Of a stretch of DNA of 42,990 nucleotides, positions 6,777 to 38,783 are shown piece by piece. The stretch covers positions 1 to 42,990 of the IMG/VR virus record IMGVR_UViG_3300048924_000634; one strand, given 5' to 3'. Position numbers and translations under genes: made by a program. The notes under the pieces are model-generated. The model had not been told where the DNA came from, ran no database searches, and was given only the letters and a program-made list of their open reading frames with translations. The stretch comes from a virus. The number at the start of each line of letters is the position of its first letter. Within the stretch, counting starts at the first letter, position 1.

Positions 6777-7148
6777 ATGAGTGCGTTGGTGGACGGCGTT
6801 GAGGCGGTCGAGGCGATAATCAGCGATCAACAAACTGCGGCATACCCCGATGCACCAATTCCAGGACAGGGATTGACCGTTTGCGGGTGGATATTTTTGA
6901 TGTTGGGCATCGCAACCGTTTTCGGTGCATGGATGTTTGATACGACGGTGATGTCTGAAAGTTTGGGCTCGCCTTTGGCTGGAACCTACGAGCCAGCCCA
7001 CAGCGTGGTGAATATCGGCCTCCAGCAGAAGCAGATGATGATTTTCCTCTCCGGCTTGGCTTTGTGCTTGGTAGGAATCATGGGGATCTATCTTGGAACG
7101 GCGACTAGTGCGATCCGCGCGGCATTTCTGACAGGGGCCAAGGCATGA
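6777..7148 (+). CDS. Small two-helix membrane protein
   Basis: 123 aa. Two hydrophobic segments, 'WIFLMLGIATVFGAWMF' (residues ~38-54) and 'MMIFLSGLALCLVGIMGIYL' (~87-106), flank a loop containing 'YEPAHSVVNIGLQQKQ'. That loop motif recurs in many small membrane proteins of unknown role on phages and plasmids of this bacterial group, from memory. A GGGGCAGGCAG purine run precedes the ATG. Its stop overlaps the start of the MtlR-like gene by 4 bp, so the two are co-translated. Both lie on the lysogenic strand behind the repressor, which suggests expression in the lysogen. Confidence 0.65.
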   Translation: MSALVDGVEAVEAIISDQQTAAYPDAPIPGQGLTVCGWIFLMLGIATVFGAWMFDTTVMSESLGSPLAGTYEPAHSVVNIGLQQKQMMIFLSGLALCLVGIMGIYLGTATSAIRAAFLTGAKA

Positions 7149-7837
7149 GTAGGGTTCAAAAGAGTAGAACCAAAGCGCCGTTTGCGGAACAAGATAAGAG
7201 TTGGCTATCTGAACTGGGTGAACGTACTGCATTATTTAACAAGACCGTGGAGGAATTGTCCATTCATCGCGATCGAGAATTGGCAATTGTTGCGTCTTCG
7301 TTGATGGATGATGTTCTAAAGGATTTGCTGCTTTCGTGTATCGTGGATATATCAGAAAATCATAAAAAAAGCTTATTCGATATTTCTGCTCCTTTAGGAA
7401 CATTTTCGGCAAGAATTAATCTTTCGGGAGCTTTTGGTTTTATATCGAAGAAGCAAAGGGACGATCTTAATTGTATTAGAAATATCAGAAACGAATTTGC
7501 GCATTCATATACTGGGCACTCATTTTCTGACGAGCCTATGAAATCTTTATGTGGCAGTCTGAAGCTTGTGTCTTCAAAGAATTATGCAAAATTGCGTGAA
7601 GGTTTTGCAGCGCATGATGAGATGTTGGAGACTTCCGTCGGCGAAGCTTATGTCCATGGCAAGCTTATTGAAATTGCTGTAACGGATGAAAATCAGAACG
7701 CAATTTTATGGGTGAGGCCTCTTGAGGTTGATTTCAAAAATCCCAGAAAACGGTTTATAAATTCAATAAAAATATTATACATGTCGATAGTAACTACAAC
7801 TCTTCTTCGGTATCAGAAGATTGGAAAGTTTTCTTAG
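7145..7837 (+). CDS. MtlR-family helical protein with a HEPN-like R-x4-H motif
   Basis: 230 aa. The stretch 'ISAPLGTFSARINLSGAFGF' then 'ISKKQRDDLNCIRNIRNEFA' + H is the signature region of the MtlR (mannitol repressor) family, an all-helical fold that does not itself resemble a DNA-binding protein. RNEFAH (residues 115-120) also satisfies the R-x4-H motif of HEPN ribonucleases, including the polar residue after Arg. The gene is markedly AT-richer than the phage backbone, a sign of recent acquisition. It is coupled to the membrane protein upstream. Role in the phage unknown; a lysogenic-conversion or defence function is inference only. Confidence 0.65.
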   Translation: MSRVQKSRTKAPFAEQDKSWLSELGERTALFNKTVEELSIHRDRELAIVASSLMDDVLKDLLLSCIVDISENHKKSLFDISAPLGTFSARINLSGAFGFISKKQRDDLNCIRNIRNEFAHSYTGHSFSDEPMKSLCGSLKLVSSKNYAKLREGFAAHDEMLETSVGEAYVHGKLIEIAVTDENQNAILWVRPLEVDFKNPRKRFINSIKILYMSIVTTTLLRYQKIGKFS

Positions 7838-8018
7838 ATATGCGAAACATCGCTTCATATATGCGTTTCACCGCGCGTTCGACTTGATCAAGCCTTTCGT
7901 AGTAGCCATAGGCATCCACGCCCGCTGCGATCATTTCGCGGGTAATCTCAATCTCGGTGAGATGGATATCGTGCGCGCTACTACCGCCCCTGTTAGCGGC
8001 GTGGGGCTTAATGGCCAT
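7794..8018 (-). CDS. Hypothetical protein (74 aa)
   Basis: Starting at ATG 8018, which follows a purine-rich AGGACAGGGCAGGA, the protein is 74 aa: 'HLTEIEITREMIAAGVDAYG', then 'YYERLDQVERAVKRIYEAMF', and a Ser/Asp/Glu tail. The 'ITREMIAAGVDA' phrase is common in small proteins of alphaproteobacterial phages. It is convergent with the MtlR-like gene and overlaps its 3' end by 44 bp. No function assigned; an upstream ATG at 8075 is a less likely start. Confidence 0.6.
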   Translation of the reverse strand: MAIKPHAANRGGSSAHDIHLTEIEITREMIAAGVDAYGYYERLDQVERAVKRIYEAMFRISKKTFQSSDTEEEL

Positions 8019-8205
8019 TCCTGCCCTGTCCTTTCGTGCTGGTTCCAATGCACTATTTGCTCGCATGGCAGTCATCAGGCGGCGTGAGTAATGAGCGATA
8101 ACATCCAGAACGCGCAGGCTCGAGGACTGTTGTAACTACCACGCTGATGCTATGGGTCGATGATGTCGCCAATTTACGGCGAGTTTATCGCATGCCTTCT
8201 CGGTT

Positions 8206-8811
8206 CTAACAGGTCTCGGCTACGTAAATGAACGCGACGCCTTGTTCGTTGAGAAGGCCGGCGCAAATGTGGGACTTCTTGTCAGCCGATGAAATAATGT
8301 GATTGTCTAAAAGGGCGCCGATCTTTCGGAGCCATTGGATAATGGTATCTAGATCAACGTTGGGCCCAGATCGAGGCTCATTCAGTATGCGCTTTGCTGT
8401 GCCACGATGCAAAAATGATCCGCTTATTTTCCAGAGGTTTATAAGCTCATCTTTCGTGAGTTTGGGCACGGGATGATCATCTAGTTGCAGGCCATTTGGC
8501 TCAAATCTGAAGCGTACGCCTTGTGGGAAAAAATCAGGGTTCAATTCCTCCAGCCGAGCAATCATCACGCCGGGTTCATATCGCTTCAGAATGTTAGCGC
8601 CAGTGACATCTCCATGAGCGACCATGCATCCTAAGGCTATCGTTTCGCACAGTAGGCGAAGTTGCAGGTAGCAGAATTCTTGGAGCATGCGGGGTGCCCA
8701 ATTTTCTCGATCGTCTATTGCTCGTTCGAGTGAAGCGATCCTGATTCTGGCCTCATCCATCAAATCGGCGTAGATCTGATGTTCGGCTTTCAATTTTGGC
8801 GCTCCTTCCAT
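8206..8811 (-). CDS. Orphan cargo protein (201 aa), unknown family
   Basis: 201 aa, soluble and helical, with no signal peptide. Recognisable pieces are 'YLQLRLLCETIALGCMVAHG', 'NPDFFPQGVRF' and 'LTKDELINLWKISGSFLHRG'. The last resembles a 'LT-x-x-x-L-x-x-L-W-x-x-x-G-x-x-LHRG' pattern I have seen in conserved hypothetical proteins, but no function is known to me. It has lower GC than the backbone and is transcribed away from the HigBA operon, whose operators lie in its 5' flank; autorepression by HigA could therefore also affect it. Confidence 0.65.
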   Translation of the reverse strand: MEGAPKLKAEHQIYADLMDEARIRIASLERAIDDRENWAPRMLQEFCYLQLRLLCETIALGCMVAHGDVTGANILKRYEPGVMIARLEELNPDFFPQGVRFRFEPNGLQLDDHPVPKLTKDELINLWKISGSFLHRGTAKRILNEPRSGPNVDLDTIIQWLRKIGALLDNHIISSADKKSHICAGLLNEQGVAFIYVAETC

Positions 8812-8902
8812 ACTTATCGACTCCAGCCCTTACCTGGGAAATCTGCGCTGTTGCCGAAACCAAAGTGCGGCGCGAAGCTGCACGCGGACAACATTCCGGT
8901 AA

Positions 8903-8946
8903 AATTTCCCGAAGTGGGAAATTCGCTTGTTTCCCCATCCGGGAAA
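8903..8946 (+). promoter_or_regulatory. Paired HigA operators
   Basis: Two inverted repeats with the same design, TTTCCC-N5-GGGAAA. The first has 8-bp perfect arms (8903-8910 and 8916-8923) and the second 6-bp arms (8930-8935 and 8941-8946), centred 25 bp apart. They end 16 bp before the higB start, and TATATA at 8950-8955 is a likely -10 element. Two phased operators overlapping the promoter is the standard arrangement for toxin-antitoxin autorepression. Confidence 0.65.
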
Positions 8947-8962
8947 TGCTATATAGCCGTTT

Positions 8963-9265
8963 ATGAGAATTATCGCCATCCCTCCCTTACGTGCGTTTCA
9001 AGCGCAATACCCAGACGCAGGCGCAGGCCTGCGAGACTGGGAGTCGACTACAAAACACTCGACGTTTAACCAGTCTTTGGAAGTCGTTCAGGCATTTCCG
9101 AATGCCAAAGCCATCAATGGCGAACGTGTCAGGTTTGCCATTGGCGGAGGAAAATACCGACTTGTGGTTTCATACCAATGGAAGGCACAAATCGCATATA
9201 TTAAATTTATTGGAACGCACGAAGAATATAACAAGATTGACCCTAAGGCTGTAAATAATTTTTAA
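8963..9265 (+). CDS. higB: HigB-family type II toxin (mRNA interferase)
   Basis: 100 aa. The fold marks are those of the HigB branch of RelE-like toxins: start 'MRIIAIPPLRAFQAQYPDA', 'LRDWE', the 'AFPNAKAINGERVRFAIGGG' region, 'KYRLVVSYQW' and the C-terminal 'AYIKFIGTHEEYNKID'. Family members cleave mRNA on the ribosome and stop growth when the antitoxin is lost. Toxin-before-antitoxin order, as here, is characteristic of HigBA. In a prophage it may stabilise the element or act in defence by abortive infection (inference). Confidence 0.9.
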   Translation: MRIIAIPPLRAFQAQYPDAGAGLRDWESTTKHSTFNQSLEVVQAFPNAKAINGERVRFAIGGGKYRLVVSYQWKAQIAYIKFIGTHEEYNKIDPKAVNNF

Positions 9266-11139: not shown

Positions 11140-11751
11140 TCATTCCGCCTGGGGAACATCGTCTGGTAAAAGCTTGCCTTTCATCATCATCGCGCGTGCT
11201 TTTTCGCGATTTGCCTCATATTCGTTTTTCTGCTGTGTCAAATAACTCATAAAGTTCCACTGTTTGTCCAATTTCAGCTTCTTCACGCCGAAAAGAGAAC
11301 GCAGCCGTTTGGCAAGCTTGAAGGCCTTAATGCCCATGTTGACGGTTGCCCACCGCATTTCGGCGATGCCATCCTCATCGTCGCCAAATTCCAATGTGCT
11401 CGCGATCTTCTGATCTGCCATTTCGATCTCGACCAGAAGGGAAAGGCATTTGGTGGTTTCTTTGACGCCGATTGAGTTCCAGTCTATTTCGGTTCGGTAT
11501 GATGGCTTGGCAGGAAGCCTTCCCCTTGGTTGACCTGCAAACCCTTCGGAAGCTGACCACAACTCGGAATCACTCACATAAATCGAGCATTCACGGGCGT
11601 AATCTTCAAGTGCGAGGGCCGCATATAGAGCTGAGTAACCGGCATCGCGCTTCCGCTTAAACCAATCTCTTACGACGGTGATAGATTGGGTCAGCGTAGC
11701 AGCGACCACGGACGATCCGGCAATCAAGCCTATTGTCGATGCTTCTGGCAT
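11140..11751 (-). CDS. Membrane-anchored orphan cargo protein (203 aa)
   Basis: One N-terminal membrane helix ('TIGLIAGSSVVAATLTQSIT', residues ~6-25) is followed by a basic stretch (RDWFKRKRD) and a ~150-residue cytoplasmic helical domain. No catalytic motif is visible. It is convergent with the gene at 10334 (2-bp gap), is AT-richer than its neighbours, and is transcribed against the late genes, the usual profile of a moron expressed from its own promoter in the lysogen. A TAATG junction links its start to a short open frame reading through the repeat at 11875. Function unknown. Confidence 0.65.
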   Translation of the reverse strand: MPEASTIGLIAGSSVVAATLTQSITVVRDWFKRKRDAGYSALYAALALEDYARECSIYVSDSELWSASEGFAGQPRGRLPAKPSYRTEIDWNSIGVKETTKCLSLLVEIEMADQKIASTLEFGDDEDGIAEMRWATVNMGIKAFKLAKRLRSLFGVKKLKLDKQWNFMSYLTQQKNEYEANREKARAMMMKGKLLPDDVPQAE

Positions 11752-12004: not shown

Positions 12005-12220
12005 ATGCCGCCCATCACCCGACAGCTCTTGAACGAGCGAGATCCTGCCGGTGCTGATGTGCTGCGCCAGTTGCGGCCGCTTCAGGACGAGCTGGATGCG
12101 CTGGTAGCCCGGCTCAGCGCCGGCGTGCGGTCGCACGCGCAGTTCGACGAACTTGACCATCAGGCCCACCGGATCGCCACGGGCATCCGTGCCGCCTTCC
12201 GCCAAAGGAAACGCACATGA
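12005..12220 (+). CDS. Small helical protein upstream of HNH (71 aa)
   Basis: 71 aa, all-helical: 'RQLLNERDPAGADVLRQLRP', 'LQDELDALVARLSAGVRSHA', 'QFDELDHQAHRIATGIRAAF'. The GGAG 10 bp before the ATG supports this start. Its stop overlaps the next ATG (ATGA). Function unknown; it heads the late operon. Confidence 0.6.
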   Translation: MPPITRQLLNERDPAGADVLRQLRPLQDELDALVARLSAGVRSHAQFDELDHQAHRIATGIRAAFRQRKRT

Positions 12221-12952: not shown

Positions 12953-13396
12953 ATGACAGACAACACTGCCCCCGGGAGGGCCACGCCGATCGGCATCGAT
13001 GAGCCAGACTGGCCGCACCTGTTGCCGGATGCTGCCGAGCAGGTGACTGCTTCGATCCATTGGCACCGCGTCGCCCAGGAGATGGCGGAGCTGCAGACGC
13101 TCTCCGCCTCGAACGGTCATGCCATCCAGCGCCTCGTATTGGCCTATCTCGTCTACGACCGCTGCTCGAAAATGGTGGCCGCTGATGGCTTGGTCACCGA
13201 GCCGGCCCCGGACAACCCCAAGGCGATTGCGCGCCTGTCAATCTATTACAAGGCAATGCGAGAGGCTGAAACGACGGCCGAGCGCCTTGAGGCGCAACTC
13301 GGCCTTTCGCCCGGTCGCCGGAGCAAGGTCGGCAAGGTCGTGAAGAAGCGGGAGCGCAGCACTGGTGCCGACGCGTTCCTCGGACCGAGAGGCTAG
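12953..13396 (+). CDS. terS: Terminase small subunit, P27 family
   Basis: 147 aa. The helical middle ('HRVAQEMAELQTLSASNGHA', 'IQRLVLAYLVYDRCSKMVAA') followed by 'PKAIARLSIYYKAMREAETT' and 'LGLSPGRRSKVGK' is the P27-type TerS pattern, in which the C-terminal 'LGL-(S/T)-P-x-(S/A)-R' motif is diagnostic. It recognises the packaging site and recruits TerL. It lies directly before TerL and overlaps it by 32 bp. Confidence 0.85.
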   Translation: MTDNTAPGRATPIGIDEPDWPHLLPDAAEQVTASIHWHRVAQEMAELQTLSASNGHAIQRLVLAYLVYDRCSKMVAADGLVTEPAPDNPKAIARLSIYYKAMREAETTAERLEAQLGLSPGRRSKVGKVVKKRERSTGADAFLGPRG

Positions 13397-33811: not shown

Positions 33812-34180
33812 ATGGCACTCAAGATCTTCGGCCTTGCCATTCTGTCCAGCGCCGAGCTGGCCACCCTCAAGACCTTTGCCCTGACCGAAGGCGAAAAGGC
33901 CGTCGCCGCCCTCAAGCAGACCGACATCGGTAAGACCGTGGCGGCTGACATCGCCGCCGCCGCCAACGCGGACCTGACGGGCATGCAGAAGTTCGAGCAG
34001 GTGCTCACCAACACCCTGCCGCTGATCCAGGCGCTCTTCACCAAGCAGGGTCAGCAGGTCGAGATGGCCGACCTCGAGGACGTCGGCCGCAGCCTGGTCC
34101 AGACCGTCTACAACGACGTGAAGTCCACCACCGTCGGCACCTGGGCGGCGGGCATCCTGAAGCTGCTTGGCATCGGCTGA
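33812..34180 (+). CDS. Helical protein in the lysis module
   Basis: 122 aa, mainly helical: 'LTEGEKAVAALKQTDIGKTV', 'AADIAAAANADLTGMQKFEQ', 'VLTNTLPLIQALFTKQG'. An N-terminal hydrophobic stretch ('ALKIFGLAILSSAELATLK') is short of a signal peptide. A GAAGGAAA ribosome site is present. Proteins of this type are frequent beside lysis genes in alphaproteobacterial phages; role unknown. Confidence 0.65.
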   Translation: MALKIFGLAILSSAELATLKTFALTEGEKAVAALKQTDIGKTVAADIAAAANADLTGMQKFEQVLTNTLPLIQALFTKQGQQVEMADLEDVGRSLVQTVYNDVKSTTVGTWAAGILKLLGIG

Positions 34181-34182
34181 TC

Positions 34183-34479
34183 GTGTGGGCCCTTCTCGCG
34201 GGGCTCGCCGGAAAGGGGCTCGAGCTTCTGCTCGGGCTCCTGACCCGGACCAAGGACCCCACCGCCGTGCAGTTGGCCACCGACAAGGCCACTGCCGAAA
34301 CCAGGCTCGATCAGGAGCAAACTGCCAATGAGATTGTCGACCAGGCCGCTGCTGTTCGCACCAGCGCTGATGCTCGCGTCCTGCTCGAGTCTGAGCAGCC
34401 TGCGCCCCAAACCAGCACCGGCGGCGCCGGCGATCGCACCGCCCTCGACGCCGACCCCGAAGGCCACTGGCGCGATTAA
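34183..34479 (+). CDS. Inner-membrane spanin (Rz-like)
   Basis: 98 aa from GTG 34183. One N-terminal membrane anchor ('WALLAGLAGKGLELLLGLLT') is followed by a helical periplasmic segment ('VQLATDKATAETRLDQEQTA', 'NEIVDQAAAVRTSADARVL'). This is the i-spanin layout. The o-spanin gene is nested within its 3' part in another frame, as in lambda Rz/Rz1. The C-terminal residues ('TALDADPEGHW') are shared sequence with the nested gene. Confidence 0.7.
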   Translation: MWALLAGLAGKGLELLLGLLTRTKDPTAVQLATDKATAETRLDQEQTANEIVDQAAAVRTSADARVLLESEQPAPQTSTGGAGDRTALDADPEGHWRD

Positions 34480-34594
34480 GGTCGTGCCGTGCTCTGCTCT
34501 CACGCCGACGCCTCTTTCGCACGCCGATACCGAACTGACCAAGCAGCACGATATCGCGCAGAACGAGGTGATCGACAGGGCCTGCGGGGGCTGA
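34328..34594 (+). CDS. Outer-membrane lipoprotein spanin (Rz1-like)
   Basis: 88 aa. A lipoprotein signal 'MRLSTRPLLFAPALMLASCS' with lipobox L-A-S-C is followed by a Pro-rich linker ('LRPKPAPAAPAIAPPSTPTP'), as in Rz1 proteins. It starts inside the i-spanin gene in the +1 frame and ends 115 bp beyond it. Two Cys later in the mature part may dimerise it. Together the pair fuses inner and outer membranes at the end of lysis. Confidence 0.8.
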   Translation: MRLSTRPLLFAPALMLASCSSLSSLRPKPAPAAPAIAPPSTPTPKATGAIKVVPCSALTPTPLSHADTELTKQHDIAQNEVIDRACGG

Positions 34595-34598
34595 AAAA

Positions 34599-34620
34599 GT
34601 GGGGTATCGGTGGGGGTATC
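34599..34620 (+). repeat. Direct repeat A (tandem GGGGTAT motifs), left border of the cargo cassette
   Basis: Twenty-two bases made of GTGGGGTATC, GG and TGGGGGTATC. Two GGGGTAT motifs lie 11 bp apart. Repeat B at 36053-36074 matches at 20 of 22 positions. A hairpin AATGGC/GCCATT (34644-34649, 34658-34663) follows 24 bp downstream. Confidence 0.75.
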
Positions 34621-34666
34621 GACACTCCAGCCGACACCCTAAAAATGGCCGAAAACTGCCATTCCT

Positions 34667-34701
34667 GAAAAAATCGCGGCGGAGGGGTTATCCGCCGCGA
34701 T
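34667..34701 (-). terminator. Terminator of the leftward cargo genes
   Basis: ATCGCGGCGG (34673-34682) and CCGCCGCGAT (34692-34701) form a perfect 10-bp stem with a 9-nt loop. On the minus strand it is followed by six T, so it ends transcription of the genes at 34715-35984. Confidence 0.8.
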
Positions 34702-34714
34702 CGGGCCTGAAGCG

Positions 34715-34954
34715 CTAGTTCACCTGCTCGCCCGGATCCTTCGGACGGCCTTGAGCGGCTGCCAAGACACAGTGAGCCATCCCGGCCAGGTACTCGGCGC
34801 GCTTCGCATATTCCGGTCCGGCGTCCCGAGTTACCAGAGCCATGTTCCCAATCTTGTTGGCGAAGTCCATCGTGGAGCAGATCCCGTTCCTTTCAAACAG
34901 GCCGCCGAGCACAGCCATCACCGTACCAATGGCCATGAGAGCATCATCATCCAT
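34715..34954 (-). CDS. Small hypothetical cargo protein (79 aa)
   Basis: 79 aa. 'ALMAIGTVMAVLGGLFERNG' is a possible weak membrane helix, followed by 'STMDFANKIGNMALVTRDAG', 'PEYAKRAEYLAGMAHCVLAA'. The helical pattern resembles small phage proteins of unknown role. A GGAGATG ribosome site precedes its ATG. It lies downstream of the DUF2971 gene on the same strand, 112 bp away, within the repeat-bounded cassette. Confidence 0.6.
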   Translation of the reverse strand: MDDDALMAIGTVMAVLGGLFERNGICSTMDFANKIGNMALVTRDAGPEYAKRAEYLAGMAHCVLAAAQGRPKDPGEQVN

Positions 34955-35066
34955 GCGTCATCTCCTCTCCGTGAGATGACAGGATGCCTCATCTGGACCA
35001 TCTTACCTATACCAGGAAAGGGGGATGGCATGGGGATCTCTGTGAGCAGAAAGCGTTACGGCGCGC

Positions 35067-35984
35067 CTATCTGCCGCGATAGAACGACGCCGAGCGATGC
35101 AGGGAAACGTTTCGATAGCCGGCTTGGGTAAGCGGGTATACGGCATTCCCGACCCCGTTTCGGTTACATGGCCCATACCACACATCGCTGATCGCAACAT
35201 CATCGACCTTTTGAAACGGTATGTCGACATAGGCTGTGATCGAACTCCCGTCCGCACGGAACTTGACAGGCTCCCCGCGAACTTCTTGGCCTCCAGCTGT
35301 TCCGCCTTCATCCTGCAAAATGGCGCCGTCGTCGGACCATTTGACCGACAGTTCATGCAGGGCCCGAACCTCTTTCTCTTCTGCAAACGAGGGGTCTTTG
35401 TAGGCATGGAGGAAGCTCCCCAGAAGAGCCGCATCCTGTCCGACAGCATCTTTGAATGAGCCGCCTACCTCCTTAAAATGCAGGTATCTCACGGCTAGAT
35501 AATTCATCACCTCAGCAACCTGTTGTTTCGGGTCATAAAGAACCTCCAGCAACGTGATTGGCATTGCGTTTATCGATTTCGAGCTAAAGCCGATCGACCA
35601 TCCCTGTCCATCCTGACCATAGGCTCGCCACTGGCTTAGAACGTCTGGAGACGTCGAGAAGCAAGCAATTATGGGGTGGCTGTGGAATTGTTTGGGCGAA
35701 AGTCTTGCATCGAACTCGTCGAAAAAATCAACAGTCAGTCCTTCAAAGGCAGGTTGATCTGGGACCATTTTGAGCAGCTTGTCAGCTGCTTTCTCAAATA
35801 TCCCATAGCCATATCTCCCCTCGCTGCCATCGTTCATCATGTTGGCGTCACTAAACCTGATTTTACCTCCTTGGAGAATGGCAAGGAACGTTTCGCTGCT
35901 GCAGTAGTGAAAAAGCGTCCGATCCACATCGCGCTGTATGATGCGGTCATACAAATTTGCTTCTTTGAACGAACTCTCGGGCAT
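35067..35984 (-). CDS. DUF2971 protein
   Basis: 305 aa. The family marks are in order: 'LFHYCSSETFLAILQGGKIR', 'FSDANMMNDGSEG', 'ACFSTSPDVLSQWRAYGQDG' with 'QGWSIGF', and later 'DPSFAEEKEVRAL'. DUF2971 proteins are cytoplasmic, of unknown activity, and are often carried on prophages and in defence islands; the fold may be ADP-ribosyltransferase-like because of the 'H/Y...Y/F-S...E-x-E-x-R' order (inference). The GC content is below that of the phage backbone. It is transcribed against the lysis genes, as a lysogen-expressed cargo gene would be. Confidence 0.75.
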   Translation of the reverse strand: MPESSFKEANLYDRIIQRDVDRTLFHYCSSETFLAILQGGKIRFSDANMMNDGSEGRYGYGIFEKAADKLLKMVPDQPAFEGLTVDFFDEFDARLSPKQFHSHPIIACFSTSPDVLSQWRAYGQDGQGWSIGFSSKSINAMPITLLEVLYDPKQQVAEVMNYLAVRYLHFKEVGGSFKDAVGQDAALLGSFLHAYKDPSFAEEKEVRALHELSVKWSDDGAILQDEGGTAGGQEVRGEPVKFRADGSSITAYVDIPFQKVDDVAISDVWYGPCNRNGVGNAVYPLTQAGYRNVSLHRSASFYRGR

Positions 35985-36052
35985 GTTCTAAACCTCTCCA
36001 CCGCGCTGATCGGTGCAGTATGCCATCGTCTCTCATCCATTGCCTGCTGAAT

Positions 36053-36074
36053 GTGGGGTATAGGCGGGGGTATC
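36053..36074 (+). repeat. Direct repeat B, right border of the cargo cassette
   Basis: GTGGGGTATA, GG and CGGGGGTATC; same orientation as repeat A, differing at two positions. A perfect 9-bp hairpin GAAATGGCG/CGCCATTTC (36096-36104, 36111-36119) follows 21 bp downstream, then a stem GGCTGAGG/CCTCGGCC (36132-36150) before the next leftward gene, copying the order seen after repeat A. Confidence 0.75.
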
Positions 36075-36156
36075 ACGTTCTTGATTAAGTGGAATGAAAT
36101 GGCGCAAATTCGCCATTTCGTATTTGATCGAGGCTGAGGGATCCTCGGCCGCAATG

Positions 36157-36525
36157 CTATCTTTTCCGCCCTGCCAGCACCCATTTGACCACAGCGTAGG
36201 TCGTCGCGACCATCGTCCAAAACGCGGCTGCGATCGATGCCGCTATGCCAATTGCATATAAGGCCAACACAAGATCACTCGAACGTGCCCAGTCAGACAT
36301 GTACTGCGCGAGGCATGTTGGTGCGGCGGTTGGACACAATTTTTCAGCTAGGTTCCGCTGGTCCTGCGCGCCTTCCACGAGGTTCAGATAGGTCACCAGG
36401 CTGAAGCCGATCATCCAAAGTGTGGTCACGACGATACCGAGGCGGGCCCACATGCCTAGCCGATGGGTAGCTTTGCTGACCTCGTGAATGTTCCCGATCG
36501 GATTCATTTCGATATCCACCCCCAT
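36157..36525 (-). CDS. Small membrane protein with two helices (122 aa)
   Basis: 122 aa from ATG 36525 (ATG 36507 also possible, preceded by GGGGGTGG). Two membrane helices, 'LGIVVTTLWMIGFSLVTYLN' (~29-48) and 'LVLALYAIGIAASIAAAFWT' (~85-104), enclose a periplasmic loop with two Cys (LCPTAAPTCL) that could form a disulfide. The longer in-frame extension is shadow of the integrase and is rejected. It diverges from integrase 2, with a 57-bp gap holding the short inverted repeat TCCCG-TT-CGGGA (36541-36552). Function unknown. Confidence 0.65.
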   Translation of the reverse strand: MGVDIEMNPIGNIHEVSKATHRLGMWARLGIVVTTLWMIGFSLVTYLNLVEGAQDQRNLAEKLCPTAAPTCLAQYMSDWARSSDLVLALYAIGIAASIAAAFWTMVATTYAVVKWVLAGRKR

Positions 36526-36582
36526 GTTCAGACTGAGTTGTCCCGTTCGGGAACTTGGTCGCCCGTGCCAGAGGCCCATCAT

Positions 36583-37776
36583 ATGCTCACACCTGCCGCC
36601 GTAAAGGCCGCGCAGCCGCAAACGCGCGCCTATAAGCTGTGCGACGCCAAGGGCCTGCATCTGTTCATAGCGCCGACCGGGCTGAGGGCATGGCGTTTGA
36701 AATACCGCCGCGCCGGCCGCGAGCAGGTTGTGACCCTTGGCCACTATCCTTTCATGTCGCTGCCTGCGGCGCGCGCCGCACGCGACGCAGCAAAGGAGCG
36801 CCTGCGCGCTGGCGCCGCGCCGGTCGGCGCCCAGGCGGCTGACGAGATCTCGACTTTCGCCCAGCTCGCCCATGCGTGGCATGCTGACCAGGCCAAGCGC
36901 TGGTCGACCGTCCATGCGGCTGACGTGCTTGCCAGCCTCGAGCGGGACGTGTTCCCGGTACTGGGCGAGGAACTGCTGGCCTCGATCGACGCACCCATGG
37001 TCCTGCAGGTCCTCGAGTTGGTGGAAGGCAGGGGGCGGCTGGTGACGGGCAAGCGTATCCGCCAGCGGATCTCGAGTGTTTTCCGCTATGGCATCGCTCG
37101 CAAGCATTGTACCGAGGACCCGGCCGCAATCCTGTCGCGCTCCATGGCGCCGGCGCGGCCGCCGCGCCAGCATGCCGCGCTGTTGACGGCGGTGGAATGT
37201 CGTGAGCTGCTCGCCCGATGTTATAGCACCAGCACGCGGCCGGTCGTGTTGCTCGCGTCGCGCTTCCTTGCACTGACGGCTGTGCGTTTCGATGCGGTGC
37301 GCGGCATGTGCTGGGGGGAGGTCGAGGACCTGGACGGCAAAGAGCCGGTGTGGCGCGTGCCGGCGGCGCGGATGAAGCTCGCCCTAGTCAAGAAGAATGA
37401 TGGTCGGTTCGATCACCTGGTGCCGCTGAGCCAAGCGGCCGTGAAGGTCCTGCAGATTTGCCGCGCCGCGCTCGATCATGTTGCCGATGCCGGAGAATTG
37501 GTTTTTCGGGCTGGAGCGAACAACGTGCCGATCGGGGAGGGCGCCATTCGCCAGCTCTACATCGACGCCGGCTACAAGGGGCGCCATGTGCCGCACGGCT
37601 GGCGCGCCAGCTTTAGCACCATCCTCAACGAGCTGATGCCATCCGAGCGCGGCGAGATTGATCGTGCGCTGGCCCACACGCCGAAGGATAAGGTCGAAGC
37701 AGCCTATAACCGCTCAATGCAGCTTGCACGCCGACGCGCGTTGTTCGACCAGTGGGGTGCTTTGTTGACCGAGTAA
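36583..37776 (+). CDS. P4-type tyrosine integrase with arm-binding N-terminus (integrase 2)
   Basis: 397 aa. The DUF4102-type N-terminal domain is clear: 'MLTPAAVKAAQPQTRAYKLC', 'DAKGLHLFIAPTGLRAWRLK', 'YRRAGREQVVTLGHYPFMSL'. The catalytic set is complete: R235 (TAVRFD), H338 and R341 (HGWRASFST), H365 (ALAHTP), Y375 (AAYNRS). P4-type integrases nearly always insert in tRNA 3' ends (established), which matches the tRNA-Pro fragment 2.3 kb away. The start chosen at 36583 is where homology to the family begins. It should be active. Confidence 0.93.
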   Translation: MLTPAAVKAAQPQTRAYKLCDAKGLHLFIAPTGLRAWRLKYRRAGREQVVTLGHYPFMSLPAARAARDAAKERLRAGAAPVGAQAADEISTFAQLAHAWHADQAKRWSTVHAADVLASLERDVFPVLGEELLASIDAPMVLQVLELVEGRGRLVTGKRIRQRISSVFRYGIARKHCTEDPAAILSRSMAPARPPRQHAALLTAVECRELLARCYSTSTRPVVLLASRFLALTAVRFDAVRGMCWGEVEDLDGKEPVWRVPAARMKLALVKKNDGRFDHLVPLSQAAVKVLQICRAALDHVADAGELVFRAGANNVPIGEGAIRQLYIDAGYKGRHVPHGWRASFSTILNELMPSERGEIDRALAHTPKDKVEAAYNRSMQLARRRALFDQWGALLTE

Positions 37777-37824
37777 TGCACAAACCGGGGCCTGAGATGC
37801 ATAATTAGCCCTCGGGCTGCATAT

Positions 37825-37952: not shown

Positions 37953-38783
37953 TTGAAAATTGAAGCTCTTAAATCCGTCTCTTCCGTTTCGCCCGCTGCT
38001 GGCTATCAGGGCGGTAAGCGTAATCTGGCCCGCCGAATCTGCGCTATCATCGAGAACATCCCGCATGACGGCTATGCCGAGCCCTTTGTCGGCATGGGCG
38101 GGATCTTCCTGCGCCGCTCGATGCGGCCGAAGGCCGAGATCATCAACGACATCAGCGGCGACATCGCGACCTTCTTCCGGGTGCTTCAGGAGCACTATCC
38201 CTACCTGATCGACATGCTGCGCTGGCGCGTCTCCGGGCGGGCCGAGTTCGCGCGGCTGGCCGCCATGCCCGCCGACCGGCTGACAGATCTGCAACGCGCT
38301 GCGCGTTTCCTGTATCTCCAGCGCCTGGCCTTCGGCGGCAAGATCTCCGGCCGCAATTTCGGTGTCGATAGCCGTGCCGGCGCGCGCTTCAATGTGTCGA
38401 AGCTGGAGCCGATGCTGGCGGACGTCCACGAGCGGCTCGCCGGGGTGGTGATCGAGCAACTGCCGTTCGACCAATTCATCGCCCGCTACGATCGGCCGGG
38501 GATGCTGTTCTACCTCGACCCGCCCTATTGGGGCTGCGAGACTGACTATGGCGCCGACGTCTTCACCCGGGACGACTTCGCGCGGCTGGCGGCGCAGCTC
38601 GCCGATGCGCGCGGCAAATTCCTGCTGAGCCTCAATGATCGGCCCGAGGTGAGGGAGTGCTTCGCGGCGTTCCACATCCAGGCGATCGACACGACCTATA
38701 CCATCGGCGGCGCGGCGCGGGCGGGGGAGGTTCTCATCAGCAACTTCCTGCCGGCTGGGCCCGGCCGGCGCCGCGAGAGCTGA
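37953..38783 (+). CDS. D12-class DNA N6-adenine methyltransferase
   Basis: 276 aa if TTG 37953 is used (no ATG or GTG fits in the conserved region; a longer start at 37842 is possible). Motif I is split as in this class: 'PAAGYQGGKRNLARRI' and 'EPFVGMGGIFLRRS'. Motif IV is DPPYWG (D189-Y192), the catalytic DPPY of adenine methylation. It transfers methyl from SAM to adenine, shielding phage DNA from host restriction or regulating phage genes. There is no partner restriction gene nearby, so it is a solitary enzyme. Confidence 0.9.
   Translation: MKIEALKSVSSVSPAAGYQGGKRNLARRICAIIENIPHDGYAEPFVGMGGIFLRRSMRPKAEIINDISGDIATFFRVLQEHYPYLIDMLRWRVSGRAEFARLAAMPADRLTDLQRAARFLYLQRLAFGGKISGRNFGVDSRAGARFNVSKLEPMLADVHERLAGVVIEQLPFDQFIARYDRPGMLFYLDPPYWGCETDYGADVFTRDDFARLAAQLADARGKFLLSLNDRPEVRECFAAFHIQAIDTTYTIGGAARAGEVLISNFLPAGPGRRRES

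Follow-up and report, generated by a model that had tools for sequence, protein, structure and literature searches.

What allows phages to exchange accessory and anti-phage genes so rapidly at fixed loci is an open question in the field, and the locus described here offers one possible answer. The window, by which we mean the whole 42,990-nt stretch of DNA analyzed (IMG/VR virus record IMGVR_UViG_3300048924_000634), is, to judge from its relatives, most likely a prophage of a sphingomonad and contains a P4-type integrase gene (Int2) next to small genes bordered by repeats. From comparison with related genomes and viral contigs we found a structured unit that appears equivalent to the attachment ends of related prophages, is linked to Int2, lies in the interior of prophages, and borders cargo that varies between relatives and is arrayed in some of them. 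The role of Int2 may be to shuffle accessory genes, including anti-virus ones, in a manner resembling bacterial integrons.

Two 22-bp repeats of the same orientation, 34599-34620 and 36053-36074, are identical at 20 of 22 positions, and no other match with up to four mismatches was found on either strand of the window. As the preliminary description had stated, an ATGGC/GCCAT stem-loop starts 24 bp after each repeat (34645-34662 and 36099-36116) and is followed by a second dyad (34674-34700 and 36128-36154). Each repeat turned out to form the left-hand portion of a longer unit (~105 bp) that includes the second dyad; this dyad is the conserved core of the unit, and the first stem-loop is weaker and lies in a variable stretch. 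In the window, a covariance model of the unit (R1) found only the units A and B, with 88 and 72 bits, both of which belonged to its training set; the best other match reached 11.6 bits, and the distant left-hand unit of some relatives (see below) is absent. Since the E-values in the window are 4e-19 and 2e-15 and the model, applied to 401 related genomes, has matches in only 19, units A and B are not chance. They lie in the order late/lysis genes, unit A, the leftward 79-aa and DUF2971 genes, unit B, a leftward gene and Int2, with the following features:

34597..34701, plus strand: unit A, putative attachment-type site of Int2 with arm pair, middle stem-loop and core dyad (R1 88.1 bits, E 3.8e-19, training-set member)
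34601..34620, plus strand: arm pair of unit A, GGGGTATC at 34601-34608 and GGGGTATC at 34613-34620, 12 bp apart (from the sequence; the same pair is seen at rhizobial attachment ends)
34674..34700, no strand assigned: core dyad of unit A, TCGCGGCGGA - GGGGTTA (34684-34690) - TCCGCCGCGA, in another notation GCGGCGGA-GGGGTTA-TCCGCCGC (from the sequence; the dyad pairs covary across 25 units)
34715..34954, minus strand: cargo gene, 79 aa, with its 3' end 15 bp from core A (open reading frame; no Pfam, PHROGs or PADLOC match)
35067..35984, minus strand: cargo gene, 305 aa, DUF2971 (Pfam 2.6e-8; phrog_1762; weak PADLOC match to PDC-S31, 7e-5)
36051..36155, plus strand: unit B, second putative attachment-type site (R1 71.8 bits, E 2e-15, training-set member)
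36055..36074, plus strand: arm pair of unit B, GGGGTATA at 36055-36062 and GGGGTATC at 36067-36074 (from the sequence)
36128..36154, no strand assigned: imperfect core dyad of unit B, TCGAGGCTGA - GGGATCC (36138-36144) - TCGGCCGCAA (from the sequence)
36157..36582, minus strand: cargo gene between unit B and Int2, at most 141 aa, membrane-protein-like (open reading frame; no family match)
36583..37776, plus strand: Int2, P4-type tyrosine integrase with an arm-binding domain (Arm-DNA-bind_3 1.3e-16, Phage_int_M 1.4e-28, Phage_integrase 6.8e-6)
37953..38783, plus strand: Dam-type D12 methyltransferase (Pfam 4.8e-24)

The Pfam matches agree with the preliminary description both on the DUF2971 gene between the repeats and, through Arm-DNA-bind_3, on the P4-type integrase near them. 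PDC-S31, which the DUF2971 protein matches weakly, is a candidate defence family of PADLOC. The GC content is 0.52 in the DUF2971 gene, 0.60 in the 79-aa gene and 0.65 in the late genes. Elsewhere in the window, 7145-9265 and 11140-11751 have low GC (0.46 and 0.50) and probably contain further accessory genes, with no unit beside them, and a leftward gene at 1-1311 has a recombinase-like reading with no Pfam or PHROGs match at 0.001. The spacers of the two core dyads, GGGGTTA in A and GGGATCC in B, differ at three of seven positions. A recent or plain tandem duplication of A into B is unlikely, because 30 other units resemble A at least as much as B does; A and B are not mutual closest relatives.

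Across relatives, a typical unit comprises a pair of GGGGTATC-type sites with 12-bp spacing, then a variable stretch and, ~90 bp on, the core dyad with its 7-nt spacer. The spacing of the arm pair is either 12 or 22 bp, and this difference of about one helical turn is as expected for a protein complex. In the core, the inner GGA/TCC is constant and the outer pairs covary, seven of ten pairs being changed on both sides; the spacer is mostly GGGRTTA (25 of 60). These two-sided changes would agree with one diverging protein recognising both halves of the site, and also with a folded strand. When we compared a folded-strand (attC-like) core with a double-stranded one, stem mismatches of the G-T kind numbered 33 vs 16 for A-C, a suggestive excess that shared descent keeps from deciding the matter. 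The units form similarity islands of ~105 bp between unrelated flanks, with 60-78% identity from unit to unit, and all units of one locus share one orientation. At L169:9068-9172, the spacer reads TAATTCC, which is GGAATTA in reverse complement and looks like a flip of the core relative to the arms. An exact scan of viral contigs with the window's 22-bp repeat gave zero matches and a relaxed pattern that includes the core gave 21; pattern scans overall located units in ~30 viral contigs, mostly adjoining Int2. In the phages collection, blastn of 34100-37800 found no unit, the matches being weak ones to the integrase.

The rhizobial relatives of Int2 adjoin tRNA-Ser genes and have GGGTA(T/C)C pairs between the tRNA gene and the integrase gene. 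The distance from the arm pair to TCCGCC is 84-94 bp in the units and 91 bp in one rhizobial locus (L012), and at the distal attachment ends an arm pair followed after ~90 bp by TCYGCCA occurs once each in 8 of 13 rhizobial records. In four clean rhizobial prophages, the identity between attL and attR covers the 7-8 bp left of TCYGCCA and goes no further; among the remaining pairs, one has 16 bp of identity, L023/L144 is mismatched and may be a different element, and L017 is not informative as a pair, its right flanks being identical. This position of the identity places the crossover overlap where the sphingomonad dyad has its spacer. Because the geometry and the overlap position match the real prophage ends of Int2 relatives, the units are very probably attachment-type sites. 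The GGGGTAT pairs, likened to P4-type arm sites in the preliminary description, correspond to such an arm pair, with the 12-bp spacing and the ~90 bp to TCCGCC seen at real attachment ends of the relatives. No arm pair was found between core and Int2 in the sphingomonad loci, whereas the rhizobial relatives have one there.

The units are closely tied to Int2. An Int2 profile found 14 copies above 514 bits in 13 of the 401 related genomes, the next score down being 466 bits. The 19 genomes with units comprise all 13 with an Int2 ortholog and 6 of the 388 others (Fisher 3e-20), and the ortholog adjoins a unit in each of the 13. Some of the counted units had been used for training the model; the enrichment does not depend on training-set membership, since no genome among the 401 had been excluded beforehand. 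Among the six unit-containing genomes with no counted ortholog are G033, which has an integrase of 463 bits at a distance of 1.4 kb, and G189, in which Int2 is broken. The units are thus probably attachment-type sites of Int2.

Many of these phages also carry Int3, a P4-type integrase adjoining a tRNA gene (Ser, Asn or Gln). The phages of L003:11241-12512 and L020:11441-12799, among others, have this pair of P4-type integrases, with Int2 in the interior and Int3 at a tRNA gene of varying identity. In eight genomes, both ends of the element are marked by 15-21-bp repeats of a tRNA 3' end; these are seven prophages of 37.6-42.8 kb and one element of 9.1 kb, with the unit and Int2 located 3.7-6.1 kb inward from the right end (the right unit of G345 was placed by the unit model). 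In these mapped relatives, Int2 is not the lysogeny integrase, a role that another integrase at the tRNA gene serves. The Int2 frames are open in the eleven copies compared, with dN/dS of ~0.1-0.4, and Int2 is intact and under purifying selection. R235, H338-x-x-R341 and Y375 are invariant in the alignment. Together, the interior position and the dN/dS values indicate that an integrase not used for present integration has been kept by selection along with its sites.

Two of the compared elements have peculiarities of their own. The 9.1-kb element (L089, G105:C5:796939-816938) contains, between tRNA-Gln 3'-end repeats, Int3, a rep-like gene, Int2, cargo and a unit, apparently with no structural genes, and could be a remnant or a satellite; on its reverse strand, a direct repeat of ~55 bp (12119-12172 and 13066-13120) surrounds a gene for 256 aa that lies left of the unit. 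G345 has a second prophage (L131, G345:C1:968155) whose late end and unit are the same (83% identity); it lacks Int2, and right of the core comes other DNA, which may be phage or host. We had considered its unit as a prophage-host junction and withdrew this reading, as the adjoining lipoprotein gene is near phage genes in G321 too.

The DNA to the right of the units differs from one relative to another. In eight loci, the right-hand unit is 19-150 bp from Int2 and there is no cargo; in others, the distance is 240-2200 bp, and the cargo includes membrane proteins, a zinc-finger-like 55-aa protein, BLUF, AbiV (listed by PADLOC, 7.5e-7) and DUF4145-like genes, several of low GC. Other cargo at units consists of DUF2971 and GDSL/acyltransferase genes. 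The Dam-type methyltransferase gene also changes place, being left of the unit, in the gap between unit and Int2, or behind Int2 (L164, L172, L176, L081 and L083 compared with the window). The preliminary description had proposed that a single repeat with no cargo, or other genes between two repeats, would speak for a cassette. The former was found in L013, L015, G104, G288, G252, G202, G061 and G162, and the latter, with two or three units, in L169 (three units, GDSL-type and membrane genes between), G189/L127 (three units, a GDSL hydrolase and an acyltransferase between), G332/L088 (two units, one with poor arms) and L170 (two weak units). It had also named two observations that would speak against a cassette, and neither applies: the genes differ among relatives, and the unit is not spread through unrelated phage DNA. 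The G189 locus (L127, G189:C4) is a prophage remnant with a broken Int2, in which the late genes between the units are missing.

A second unit of the same orientation lies 24-30 kb to the left, near the border of early and late genes, in G001, G003, G061, G100 (two prophages), G104, G170 and G345, and two units bracket the late-gene block in at least eight prophages. The spacers of the left and right units of one phage differ in every case. In three pairs of related phages (L156/L159, L158/L174 and L078/L153), the two members agree in the left flank and through the unit as far as the right end of the core, the cargo is unrelated, and the match resumes at the start of Int2; at this junction L078 has no cargo and L153 has a 181-aa gene. 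In the pair L082/L161, the sequences are alike from the unit rightwards (93%) and different left of it. The unit is therefore a module border on both sides. Among the phages compared here, we found no pair differing by exactly one unit-bounded cassette. As in a hotspot, the locus is fixed between conserved phage genes and contains unrelated cargo in relatives, and these comparisons support a cassette-like accessory locus. The interpretation in the preliminary description is supported in part; excision by recombination of A with B, as a simple reaction of a strict integrase, is disfavoured by the three differing spacer positions.

In the explanation that we favour, if by a modest measure, units A and B would be recombination sites of Int2, consisting of an arm-binding pair and a core in which the 7-nt spacer would serve for the crossover, and the DNA right of each unit would be an accessory-gene locus. 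The stretch from A to B would be one cassette (the 79-aa and DUF2971 genes) that carries its own site B and is stacked on a further cargo gene next to Int2. Int2 would recombine sites with matching spacers between co-resident phages or prophages, by which cargo right of the core would be gained, swapped or stacked. We infer that Int2 acts on the units today and moves cargo. The unequal spacers could mean that the cassettes came from different phages and stay put once stacked; a different phage origin fits the finding that other phages have units at least as close to A and B as these are to each other. Under strict overlap homology, recombination between the units of one genome would be disfavoured, because left and right spacers always differ. 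At single-unit loci, where cargo lies between the last unit and Int2 with no site on the Int2 side, one crossover must be something else. Exchange by homologous recombination is also possible. Against exchange by Int2 we count that no excised circle was seen, that arm sites between core and Int2 are absent, and that the two DUF2971 proteins found as cargo, from A-B of the window and from right of the left unit in G100, are only 25% identical, which makes them members of the same family and not a recent transfer. The spacer sits at the 7-8-bp overlap position of the relatives, but A and B differ at three of its seven positions and no partner site was found.

The main competing explanation is that of an ordinary attP beside which imprecise excision has brought in cargo. 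The unit would then be the Int2 attP for occasional integration of the whole phage into the chromosome, now or formerly; imprecise excision and homologous recombination would bring the cargo, and Int2 would move no cassettes. Accessory (lysogenic-conversion) genes next to attP are a known pattern in other phages. This reading also accommodates the differing spacers of units within one phage, the fact that most loci have a single unit and cargo on the Int2 side only, and the common spacer GGGRTTA, which looks as if there were one shared target. We nevertheless consider it unlikely, though a serious contender, as the unit is at the junction in none of the eight prophages with mapped ends, no host attB for the units was found, and arrays of two or three units with cargo, as well as second units 24-30 kb away, are unexpected for a single attP. 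A further reading, improbable in our judgement, takes the units as passive homology islands, whose ~105 bp would let Red-like recombinases or RecA swap flanking modules, with Int2 irrelevant to cargo turnover. Mosaic junctions at both unit edges and the identity between units are in line with it, but it leaves unexplained why the arm spacing, the covarying dyad and the constant spacer are kept and why the unit is tied to Int2, and the exact stretches common to units are short. That the unit is a transcription or packaging element (a terminator between convergent genes, an operator or a cos-linked element) bordering accessory genes by chance is very improbable. In its favour, units are often found between convergent genes, the unit A hairpin, with T6 after it on the minus strand, suits the end of the 79-aa gene, and P2/P4 hotspots adjoin cos (PMC9122126). 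Against it, only an attachment site explains the 7-bp end identity of the relatives, the arm pair and its distance to TCCGCC, and no units occur outside genomes that have Int2 or its remnants. The hairpin as a terminator was dropped, most units having no T-run.

If Int2 does move the cargo as we favour, an ordinary phage integrase targeting tRNA genes would have evolved into a device resembling an integron, and accessory genes in these phages could be located with the unit model through their borders. A more far-reaching version, which we offer tentatively, is that a P4-type integrase underlies an integron-like capture system carried by the phages themselves, a dedicated cassette platform apart from lysogenic integration. 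Through it, phages of sphingomonads would exchange accessory and defence genes, and perhaps also the late-gene block as a whole. In either form, a conserved second integrase with its own attachment-type sites at such a locus makes for a specific, testable enzyme-and-site mechanism.

Parts of this locus have counterparts in known systems. First, P4-type tRNA attachment sites (KplE1 IntS, PMC2951348; the rhizobial loci L016-L023) likewise have arm sites and a core, an adjoining integrase and an N-terminal arm-binding domain, and the rhizobial sites also share the arm sequence, the spacing and the core half-site TCCGCC. In contrast to these, the core of the unit is a near-perfect dyad outside a tRNA gene, and the units have no arm sites on the integrase side, lie inside the prophage, and occur in one to three or more copies with cargo between. 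Second, integrons, including phage ones (PMC11551772, PMC9892861), have an integrase beside an array of cargo of single or few genes with the site near the 3' end of the gene, and two or three units with genes between them, which may be an array of this kind, occur in the window, L169, L170, G189 and G332. Int2, however, is P4-type and not IntI, its sites are ~105-bp arm-pair sites with a core related to the tRNA-Ser end and not attC, and the arrays are very short. Third, the dif modules of Acinetobacter plasmids (PMC6449649, PMC13141974) are small gene modules bounded by short tyrosine-recombinase sites, and their rearrangement depends on equal or nearly equal spacers; they use host XerC/XerD and alternating pdif sites on plasmids, whereas the units go with a phage integrase and one orientation. 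Fourth, CIMEs and att-site accretion (PMC5704250, PMC7563491) also place two att sites around integrase-less DNA stacked beside an integrase-bearing element, but they are chromosomal, at the integrase target, and have equal cores, whereas the units are inside phages and have the unequal spacers GGGGTTA and GGGATCC. By the features tested, the locus would work like a cassette platform and is not an integron, a dif module or a CIME. At last, P2/P4 phages show fast turnover of accessory and defence genes at fixed loci next to cos, for which the authors could only speculate about cohesive ends (PMC9122126). The present locus shares the fixed phage position and the fast turnover; no recombination site or enzyme is known for the P2/P4 hotspots, whereas this locus is bordered by an integrase and attachment-type units. 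We class the unit as a variant P4-type attachment site, located in an accessory-gene hotspot of phages like that of P2/P4 (PMC9122126).
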